DNA from: Loxodes magnus
Lineage: Eukaryota; Ciliophora; Karyorelictea; Loxodida; Loxodidae
Assembly (NCBI GenBank): GCA_946699065.1
Contig: CAMPDV010001045.1
Coordinates: 1-64,000 of the forward strand
Length of the DNA stretch: 64,000 nucleotides
Reading direction: 5' to 3'
Shown: one piece after another, positions 36,232 through 64,000 of the stretch
Position numbering within the stretch: the first letter of the stretch is position 1
Layout: every line of letters begins with the position of its first letter
Translations under genes and position numbers: made by a program
The notes under the pieces: generated by a model
The model's database searches: none
What the model was told of the DNA's origin: nothing
The model's input: the letters and a program-made list of their open reading frames with translations, nothing else

Positions 36232-37031
36232 ATATACATAACTAGTGTGACCACTCATGGTCTTACAGGTACCTGTCTTGACGTCCCATAGTATCACCGT
36301 ATAATCTGCACTTCCCGATACGATGAACTATGAATCACTGGATATAGCCACAGCATATACCTATCCTGTGTGACCACTCATGGTCTTACAGGTACCTGTC
36401 TTGACGTCCCATAGTCTCACCGTATAATCATGACTTCCCGATACGATGAACTCTGAATCACTGGATATAGCCACAGATCATACAGAACTAGTGTGACCAC
36501 TCATGGTCTTACAGGTACCTGTCTTGACGTCCCATAGTCTCACCGTCTAATCATGACTTCCCGATACGATGAACTCTGAATCACTGGATATAGCCACAGA
36601 TCATACACAACTAGTGTGACCACTCATGGTCTTACAGGTACCTGTCTTGACGTCCCATAGTCTCACCGTATAATCATGACTTCCCGATACGATGAACTAT
36701 GAATCACTGGATATAGCCACAGCATATACCTAACCTGTGTGACCACTCATGGTCTTACAGGTACCTGTCTTGACGTTCCATAGTCTCACCGTCTTATCAT
36801 CACTTCCCGATACGATGAACTCTGAATCACTGGATATAGCCACAGCATATACATAACTAGTGTGACCACTCATGGTCTTACAGGTACCTGTCTTGACGTC
36901 CCATAGTCTCATCGTATAATCTGCACTTCCCGATACGATGAACTCTGAATCACTGGATATAGCCACAGATCATACAGAACTAGTGTGACCACTCATGGTC
37001 TTACAGGTACCTGTCTTGACGTCCCATAGTC
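36232..37031 (-). pseudogene. Out-of-frame tail of the WD40 array, about 6.5 units
   Basis: These units have the same 123-bp sequence as the rest of the array but lie downstream of a one-base deletion near 37075 (AATCACGGAT where other units have AATCACTGGAT). Reading from the array, the WD40 frame is lost here. The last unit is cut off in mid-blade at about 36232 (GHTSYVY, then unrelated LLSLEKTN). The diverged closing blades seen in the 25-kb gene are missing. The sequence is still highly similar to the other units, so the break is recent or the segment is still being homogenised. Confidence 0.7.
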
Positions 37032-61000: not shown

Positions 61001-64000
61001 TGACGTCCCATAGTCTCACCGTATAATCATGACTTCCCGATACGATGAACTCTGAATCACTGGATATAGCCACAGATCATACATGACTAGTGTGACCACT
61101 CATGGTCTTACAGGTACCTGTCTTGACGTCCCATAGTCTCACCGTATAATCATGACTTCCCGATACGATGAACTCTGAATCACTGGATATAGCCACAGCA
61201 TATACCTAACCTGTGTGACCACTCATGGTCTTACAGGTACCTGTCTTGACGTCCCATAGTCTCACCGTATAATTTAAACTTCCCGATACGATGAACTCTG
61301 AATCACTGGATATAGCCACAGATCATACCTAATTTGTGTGACCACTCATGGTCTTACAGGTACCTGTCTTGACGTCCCATAGTCTCACCTTCTTATCGAC
61401 ACTTCCCGATACGATGAACTCTGAATCACTGGATATAGCCACAGATCATACATGACTAGTGTGACCACTCATGGTCTTACAGGTACCTGTCTTGACGTCC
61501 CATAGTCTCATCGTATAATCTGCACTTCCCGATACGATGAACTCTGAATCACTGGATATAGCCACAGCATATACCTAACCTGTGTGACCACTCATGGTCT
61601 TACAGGTACCTGTCTTGACGTCCCATAGTCTCACCGTATAATCTGCACTTCCCGATACGATGAACTCTGAATCACTGGATATAGCCACAGCAGATACCTA
61701 ACTAGTGTGACCACTCATGGTCTTACAGGTACCTGTCTTGACGTCCCATAGTCTCACCGTCTAATCATGACTTCCCGATACGATGAACTCTGAATCACTG
61801 GATATAGCCACAGATCATACATGACTAGTGTGACCACTCATGGTCTTACAGGTACCTGTCTTGACGTCCCATAGTCTCACCGTATAATTTAAACTTCCCG
61901 ATACGATGAACTCTGAATCACTGGATATAGCCACAGATAATACATAATCTGTGTGACCACTCATGGTCTTACAGGTACCTGTCTTGACGTCCCATAGTCT
62001 CACCGTATAATCATGACTTCCCGATACGATGAACTCTGAATCACTGGATATAGCCACAGATCATACCTAATTTGTGTGACCACTCATGGTCTTACAGGTA
62101 CCTGTCTTGACGTCCCATAGTCTCACCGTATAATCATGACTTCCCGATACGATGAACTCTGAATCACTGGATATAGCCACAGATCATACATAACTAGTGT
62201 GACCACTCATGGTCTTACAGGTACCTGTCTTGACGTCCCATAGTCTCACCGTATAATCTGCACTTCCCGATACGATGAACTCTGAATCACTGGATATAGC
62301 CACAGCATATACCTAACTAGTGTGACCACTCATGGTCTTACAGGTACCTGTCTTGACGTCCCATAGTCTCACCGTATAATCTGCACTTCCCGATACGATG
62401 AACTCTGAATCACTGGATATAGCCACAGATCATACATGACTAGTGTGACCACTCATGGTCTTACAGGTACCTGTCTTGACGTCCCATAGTCTCACCGTAT
62501 AATTTAAACTTCCCGATACGATGAACTCTGAATCACTGGATATAGCCACAGCAGATACATAACTAGTGTGACCACTCATGGTCTTACAGGTACCTGTCTT
62601 GACGTCCCATAGTCTCACCGTATAATCTGCACTTCCCGATACGATGAACTATAAATCACTGGATATAGCCACAGATCATACATGACTAGTGAGACCACTC
62701 ATGGTCTTACAGGTACCTGTCTTGACGTCCCATAGTCTCACCGTATAATCTGCACTTCCCGATACGATGAACTCTGAATCACTGGATATAGCCACAGCAT
62801 ATACCTAACTAGTGTGACCACTCATGGTCTTACAGGTACCTGTCTTGACGTCCCATAGTCTCACCGTCTAATCATGACTTCCCGATACGATGAACTCTGA
62901 ATCACTGGATATAGCCACAGCATATACCTAATTTGTGTGACCACTCATGGTCTTACAGGTACCTGTCTTGACGTCCCATAGTCTCACCGTATAATCATGA
63001 CTTCCCGATACGATGAACTCTGAATCACTGGATATAGCCACAGATCATACATAACTAGTGTGACCACTCATGGTCTTACAGGTACCTGTCTTGACGTCCC
63101 ATAGTCTCACCGTATAATCTGCACTTCCCGATACGATGAACTCTGAATCACTGGATATAGCCACAGCATATACCTAACTAGTGTGACCACTCATGGTCTT
63201 ACAGGTACCTGTCTTGACGTCCCATAGTCTCACCGTATAATCTGCACTTCCCGATACGATGAACTCTGAATCACTGGATATAGCCACAGATCATACATGA
63301 CTAGTGTGACCACTCATGGTCTTACAGGTACCTGTCTTGACGTCCCATAGTCTCACCGTATAATTTAAACTTCCCGATACGATGAACTCTGAATCACTGG
63401 ATATAGCCACAGCAGATACATAACTAGTGTGACCACTCATGGTCTTACAGGTACCTGTCTTGACGTCCCATAGTCTCACCGTATAATCATGACTTCCCGA
63501 TACGATGAACTCTGAATCACTGGATATAGCCACAGATCATACATGACTAGTGAGACCACTCATGGTCTTACAGGTACCTGTCTTGACGTCCCATAGTCTC
63601 ACCGTATAATCATGACTTCCCGATACGATGAACTCTGAATCACTGGATATAGCCACAGCATATACCTAACCTGTGTGACCACTCATGGTCTTACAGGTAC
63701 CTGTCTTGACGTCCCATAGTCTCACCGTATAATCATGACTTCCCGATACGATGAACTCTGAATCACTGGATATAGCCACAGATCATACAGAACTAGTGTG
63801 ACCACTCATGGTCTTACAGGTACCTGTCTTGACGTCCCATAGTCTCACCGTATAATTTAAACTTCCCGATACGATGAACTCTGAATCACTGGATATAGCC
63901 ACAGCAGATACACAACTAGTGTGACCACTCATGGTCTTACAGGTACCTGTCTTGACGTCCCATAGTCTCACCGTATAATCTGCACTTCCCGATACGATGA
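37032..64000 (-). CDS. Giant WD40-repeat protein, about 219 blades in one frame (partial)
   Basis: From the right edge of the window to about 37076 the minus strand encodes 41-residue WD40 units in one frame, with no net length change: unit starts at 37088, 39056, 47174, 54431 and 63533 differ by exact multiples of 123. Each unit reads GHT-x-x-V-x-x-V, then [13 protein letters not shown], a short variable loop, TVRLW and [10 protein letters not shown]. Under the standard code there would be TAG at residues 5, 16 or 25 and TGA at residues 7 or 23 in many units; as Gln and Trp they give normal WD40 sequence (HVWSVAISSD, GSWDETVRLW). The frame ends at TGA 37032-37034 after the deletion near 37075. 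It encodes about 8990 codons within the window, and its N-terminus lies outside. A propeller uses about seven blades, so this would be some 31 propellers. It could instead be an unexpressed store of blade units. Confidence 0.7.

Follow-up and report, generated by a model that had tools for sequence, protein, structure and literature searches.

A tandem WD40 array in the ciliate Loxodes magnus: a probable store of reshuffled recognition modules

The arrays, the neighbouring gene and the genetic code

The window, that is the whole stretch of 64,000 nucleotides of Loxodes magnus DNA that was analysed, holds the features collected in Table 1. The units of the WD40 array lie head-to-tail on the minus strand and were laid out by cyclic alignment in 227 rows, 224 of which are full 123-bp units, the remainder being two cut ends and unit 219; the latter lacks one base near position 37076, the array's only true indel, and eight further rows with apparent "indels" reflect an alignment swap at codons 3/4. 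The three incomplete rows are excluded from all per-site figures given below, which rest on the other 224. Among these 224 there are 91 distinct units, 49 of which occur once. At its edge the array breaks off mid-unit into AT-rich DNA, with no closing blades.

Table 1. Coordinates of the features in the window
Feature	Coordinates	Strand	Remarks
80/81-bp array	1-22562	minus-strand reading by eye	TRF
AT-rich DNA, 13.7 kb	between the two arrays		one gene and retroelement remnants
Neighbouring gene	24870..27458	(-)	3' end approximate; translation with TGA=W, TAA/TAG=Q
Gene propeller, 7 blades / 28 strands	25023..25949	(-)	AlphaFold2 pLDDT 90.1, pTM 0.89
Gene tract, 537 bp, mid-blade 1 to mid-blade 5	25332..25868	(-)	all bases array-type
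Reverse transcriptase remnant, located between the gene and the WD40 array	31849..32334	(-)	RVT_1 1.4e-10; FADDL motif by eye
Possible second reverse transcriptase remnant	35088..35627	(-)	about 0.6 kb from array edge
WD40 tandem array, 225+ units of 123 bp / 41 aa	36232..64000	(-)	reaches window end; single TRF array call, period 123, 225.8 copies, 94% matches
Array edge	36232..37604	(-)	last 12 rows; 5/8 singleton events, deletion included
Longest exact array match to gene, 342 bp	37487..37828	(-)	equals gene 25430-25771

The gene between the arrays (about 24.9-27.46 kb), which is absent from an earlier note on this DNA, encodes a weakly RING-like N-terminus, followed by a Q-rich middle, then by pentapeptide repeats and a WD40 propeller of seven blades. 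Pfam recognised WD40 (3.8e-67) and Pentapeptide (2.4e-11); the RING-like start was identified from the Cys pattern of the translation, the Pfam RING values (0.44-0.54) being under the cut-off, and a coiled coil in the Q-rich middle was seen by eye only. The gene may resemble the TRIM and TRAF7 RING ubiquitin ligases. Neither NACHT nor NB-ARC was found in its first 519 residues (6 families) or among 25 of the 39 families listed for the whole protein, so that the label "NLR-type" of the earlier note falls away for the gene that shares the array's units: that this gene is an NLR is, on present evidence, not supported. The WD40 nature of the array units and the gene (GH...WD, about 40 residues, propeller), which the earlier note had claimed together with a ciliate-type code, was borne out by Pfam (PF00400 at 8.3e-111 in one array segment), by the AlphaFold2 model and by Foldseek, the top matches of the propeller model being WD40 propellers. 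The alignment used for AlphaFold2 took in 16 of the 31 listed seven-unit array segments, and the best PDB sequence match is 2ymu (matched chain of 577 residues).

Two of the WD tryptophans of the gene are encoded by TGA, and in-frame TAA/TAG, read as Q, are common; altogether, 72 of the 873 codons are read otherwise than under table 11. The WD tryptophan of the array (residue 30) is TGG in 224/224 units; 82 units have an in-frame TGA at residue 7, 5 have one at residue 23 and 1 has one at residue 21. Such use of TGA=W and TAA/TAG=Q in coding sequence points to table 27, reported as the karyorelict code (PMC11441545), the heterotrich code (table 28) being also compatible. Because this code has no codon that always means stop, the open frame was not accepted as evidence of coding.

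Several further elements were recorded in the window. A possible 31-bp GT-AG intron was seen by eye near the 3' end of the gene (24980-25010), the mode of Loxodes magnus introns being 17 bp and hence shorter than the candidate. Just downstream of the gene lies a 56-bp tandem repeat (5.9 copies, 24326-24660), and a 61-nt motif is present in four copies in AT-rich DNA (23111-24110), the other three being 61-75% identical to the reference and two of the four lying within a 213-nt duplication. An inverted pair of an interspersed element (27852-28014 / 33938-34100; arms 81% and 71% complementary) flanks the gene-array stretch. The possible second reverse transcriptase remnant reached E 0.0073 for RVT_1 (16.5 bits against a cut-off of 29.6), and whole-frame scans of 34.0-36.2 kb gave no RVT_1 at E 0.1. 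The tRNA scan of the whole window and the Rfam scan of 22500-36400 were both empty, and a 29-base core pattern had zero exact matches in the viral and genome contig collections searched. Among the 269 anchors of the 80/81-bp array, 129 spacings are of 80 bp and 121 of 81 bp, and TRF gave a period of 161 bp; read by eye on the minus strand with TGA=W and TAA/TAG=Q, the 81-bp form yields a charged Q-rich peptide, and it may derive from coding repeats.

Variation within the WD40 unit

Ranked by amino-acid entropy (in bits), the variable residues are 23 (2.24), 5 (2.05), 7 (1.92), 4 (1.54), 25 (1.39), 8 (0.96) and 26 (0.44), which are exactly the seven that the earlier note had named. The near-invariant core that it described likewise holds, with exceptions that are mainly S15L (18/224) and E16Q (20/224): 18 codons (9, 12-14, 17-20, 22, 30, 32-39) are uniform in 224/224 units, residue 3 is T throughout, via two codons, and 90 of the 123 nucleotide sites are invariant. 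Nine codons are found at residue 23, eight at residue 4 and five each at residues 5, 7 and 25, and the six codons that vary most, which make up 18 of 123 nt, account for 79% of the nucleotide diversity. The check that the earlier note had proposed, per-codon diversity, returned a distribution that is uneven along the unit and mostly of replacements, with a pairwise pN/pS of 2.3 for these six codons and of 0.74 elsewhere, the synonymous part of the latter figure coming almost wholly from one site, codon 3. Of the variant bases beyond the six codons, 17 are replacements and 2 are synonymous, where neutrality would give a synonymous share of 23-28%; this replacement excess is suggestive only (P 0.05-0.24 for assumed synonymous shares of 0.3-0.2), and variant bases that share a codon are non-independent events. 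The evidence on selection consists of pN/pS and variant counts; the tree needed for a per-codon likelihood analysis is doubtful given such extensive recombination.

Unevenness along the unit is by itself no evidence of selection, since the 80-bp array, taken as a control, is even more uneven than the WD40 array (per-site diversity Gini of 0.95 vs 0.87). In the 129 control units with 80-bp spacing (of 269 anchors), there are 8 distinct forms and at most two bases per site; the WD40 array differs in that as many as four bases occur at a site and that five of its positions have between five and nine codons. Targeted mutagenesis of the DGR kind was rejected by inspection, as differences among the variable codons affect first, second and third positions, without restriction to adenine.

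Because the six most variable codons were chosen from the same data, P values that use them are circular, and the counts were therefore redone against an external reference, the HET-D/E positions taken from the literature. For HET-D/E, Paoletti et al. reported strong selection on codons 7, 9, 25 and 27 of the d-a loop and the b-c turn, on either side of the conserved codons 8 and 26 (PMC1805685), and a later list comprises the seven sites 10, 11, 12, 14, 30, 32 and 39 (PMC12222747). The ciliate unit has the pairs 5/7 around residue 6 (V in 217/224 units, I in 7) and 23/25 around residue 24 (D in 210/224 units, N in 14), spaced as the HET pairs are, at an offset of two; replacement diversity at loop pairs flanking conserved sites, as in HET-D/E, was thus found in the array. 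At an offset of seven, the seven-site list becomes 3, 4, 5, 7, 23, 25 and 32 of the ciliate unit. Five of these seven positions vary in amino acid, as the earlier note had stated for this offset, and positions 3 and 32 are without replacement in 224/224 units. The five sites of highest entropy (23, 5, 7, 4, 25) are all inside the published set, the chance of five top sites falling within a given seven-site set of 41 being 2.8e-5.

The variable sites were also mapped on the propeller model of the gene, as the earlier note had suggested, where the strands of blade 2 are 58-63, 69-74 and 79-83. In the predicted structure, unit positions 4 and 5 (residues 56 and 57) precede the first strand listed for this blade, positions 7 and 8 (residues 59 and 60) fall in the first half of that strand (58-63), and positions 23 and 25 (residues 75 and 77) lie between the second and the third strands listed. 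According to this confident model, the most variable codons sit around the d-a and b-c loops; the assignment of these loop sites to the ligand face comes from PMC1805685.

Shuffling, age of the variants and the gene-array mosaic

Each unit carries one of 22 loop-1 and one of 16 loop-2 haplotypes, and these occur in 80 combinations. Violations of the four-gamete rule rise with the distance between sites, from 23/58 pairs at <10 bp through 44/59 at 10-39 bp to 89/93 at >=40 bp, association between loops dies away within about two to three units, and exact runs of up to 847 bp recur inside the array. This is the pattern of loop haplotypes reassorted as by frequent in-register homologous recombination. 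A higher-order repeat structure was looked for and rejected, at most 6.6% of units being identical at any lag from 1 to 149 and nucleotide identity being nearly flat with lag.

The variants were sorted into frequency classes, those of low frequency tending to be the younger. At the seven HET-D/E positions lie 14 of the 15 variant bases that are present in >30 units (P 2e-10), 6 of the 12 found in 11-30 units, 3 of the 5 found in 4-10 units and 3 of the 13 found in 1-3 units (P 0.39), the last class being small (n = 13), with singletons that could include sequencing errors. For the four strongest positions, the corresponding counts in the >30, 11-30, 4-10 and 1-3 unit classes are 12/15, 5/12, 2/5 and 0/13. 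The 10 rare variants outside the six codons comprise 9 replacements (including G1V, G21W, R28I and M40R) and 1 synonymous change, and show no sign of purifying selection on the core; G21W was counted once (unit 25) but is also present in the dropped unit 219, making two rows. Finally, 5 of the 8 singleton events, the deletion counted, fall in the last 12 of the 227 rows (P 2e-5, with an edge cut-off that was picked after viewing the data). The common loop variants bear the mark of past selection, and the rarest are distributed as neutral mutations would be, with their highest density at the array end, as in satellites. With rare variants off the HET positions, no sign of purifying selection and a dense edge, the array does not resemble a protein that selection is diversifying at present. 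The diversifying repertoire proposed in the earlier note is consequently supported as regards past selection on the common variants and unsupported for the array itself at present, where the variants of 1-3 units reach only 3/13 at the HET sites.

The gene tract has no private base over its 537 bp, each of its bases being matched in phase by one or more full array units, and exact matches to the array, 264, 342 and 170 bp long, cover it. Its edges are sharp and lie inside blades 1 and 5, identity dropping at once on either side. The three full array-type units of the tract occur 4, 1 and 2 times in the array, and its closest whole-length match there has 13 differing sites. When 60 random array segments of the same length were treated likewise, the median best match elsewhere was 14 and 28 of the 60 had <=13; three of the 60 values (59, 277 and 338) are artefacts of segments at 36308-37565, where the deletion breaks the fixed register. 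The tract, with 13 against a random median of 14, is therefore in statistical terms an ordinary array segment, set between fixed ends. On sequence grounds, the gene and the array draw on one recombining module pool.

Origin of the array and comparison with known systems

We favour, with moderate confidence, the reading that the array is a tandem bank of WD40 modules which derives from coding sequence and is in concerted evolution with the nearby RING-like recognition-type gene. In the expressed propellers, those of the neighbouring gene and its relatives, diversifying selection on ligand binding would have accumulated the loop variants; in the array, unequal crossing-over and gene conversion would have amplified, homogenised and shuffled the modules; conversion between gene and array would then bring new loop combinations into a seven-bladed propeller, whose bound ligand the RING-like end would tag with ubiquitin. 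The array may accordingly be a by-product or a bank of the shared pool, its own translation being unnecessary. This reading is in line with a gene model of seven blades vs 225+ units in the array, with an almost frozen core beside many alternative codons in the loops, and with rare variants that look neutral. A precedent exists in Podospora, for which it was proposed that the WD repeats of a pseudogene evolve in concert with those of active loci (PMC1805685). The direction could also be the opposite, the gene having seeded the array. In Podospora, moreover, units group by gene of origin, intragenic events exceed intergenic exchange, and in hnwd mutants the WD arrays rearrange often, mostly within the gene (PMC2873952); this clustering by origin speaks against easy traffic between loci there, so traffic from array to gene is no given. 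The far end of the array, a possible site of a 5' gene part, is beyond the window, and the order of the units may be affected by assembly.

More specifically, the array could be a dedicated donor bank from which WD40 cassettes with combinatorial ligand-face loops are gene-converted into the fixed-ended acceptor propeller of the RING-type gene, giving a VLR-like switching of recognition, possibly at each new somatic nucleus; we consider this improbable. A rival that we consider rather unlikely is a functionless macrosatellite. In this case unequal crossing-over would have amplified inner units copied from a hypervariable WD40 gene, the loop variation would be inherited from the founders, and nothing would return to the gene. 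The neutral look of the rare variants, the edge-loading of the singletons and the absence of closing blades agree with it, as do the second long array in the same window (80/81 bp, 1-22562) and the 231 Mb (MAC) and 359 Mb (MIC) of tandem repeats in Loxodes magnus assemblies (PMC11441545). On the other hand, zero fixed differences between gene and array over 537 bp mean that exchange or copying is recent or continuing, and 22 + 16 loop haplotypes exceed the capacity of one seven-bladed gene, though some are recombinants.

That the array encodes one giant WD40 protein of >9,200 residues, with about 32 propellers, acting as receptor or scaffold, seems to us very unlikely. A single frame-breaking indel in 27.8 kb that is otherwise one frame (TGA=W, TAA/TAG=Q) would suit such a protein, but an open frame is weak evidence under a code without an unconditional stop codon, the rare core variants show no purifying selection, and the frame is shifted 0.8 kb ahead of the end, where the array stops mid-unit without terminal blades. 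Least credence is given to an assembly artefact, by which reads of many WD40 genes or alleles would have been joined in a string. The array is indeed longer than typical reads, and misassembly of low-complexity repeats has been suspected in Loxodes magnus (PMC11441545); against this, the association of neighbouring loops decays smoothly, and the periodic alignment runs through all 227 rows without a break, with gene flanks nowhere inside.

If the shared-pool reading is true, a ciliate has also arrived at the strategy of loop-hypervariable WD40 repeats that is known from fungal incompatibility receptors, with hundreds of modules that are kept in an array outside the receptor gene. It raises the testable question whether protist module banks feed recognition genes, and suggests that some karyorelict tandem repeats dismissed as low-complexity may be protein modules. 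Full-text searches of one literature library found no paper on WD40 repeats of karyorelicts or Loxodes, or on ciliate WD40 repeats under diversifying selection.

A module bank beside a fixed-ended acceptor would work like the donor cassettes of the lamprey VLR and trypanosome VSG systems. The observations here are an exact mosaic and sharp edges, and show no programmed or somatic copying. The near-identical WD40 blades recall WRAP, the recently amplified highly repetitive beta-propellers represented by PDB 2ymu, for which disrupted copies have also been described; unlike the present array, about 70% of these are bacterial and 84% of the eukaryotic ones belong to Ascomycota and Basidiomycota, ciliates having no mention in the main text of that study (PMC9218822). 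The 90-bp-exon LRR arrays of Tetrahymena share with our array a ciliate host, tandem modules of recognition type, scrambling by ectopic recombination and a retroelement close by, LINE-like in Tetrahymena and represented here by one clear and one doubtful reverse transcriptase remnant, but their LRR exons are split by introns and number 1 to 51 per gene in T. thermophila (PMC6564038), whereas the WD40 units described here are intronless and number 225+. The array resembles, in its high-identity WD40 units, concerted evolution and loop location, HET-D/HET-E of the NWD family in Podospora anserina (PMC1805685, PMC12222747), with which the spacing of the four strongest sites is shared (7, 9, 25 and 27 in HET-D/E; 5, 7, 23 and 25 in the ciliate). 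It differs in that about 10-11 repeats lie there within NACHT-type receptors, whereas here 225+ units lie outside any gene seen, and the adjoining ciliate gene is of the pentapeptide-WD40 kind, without a NACHT match.
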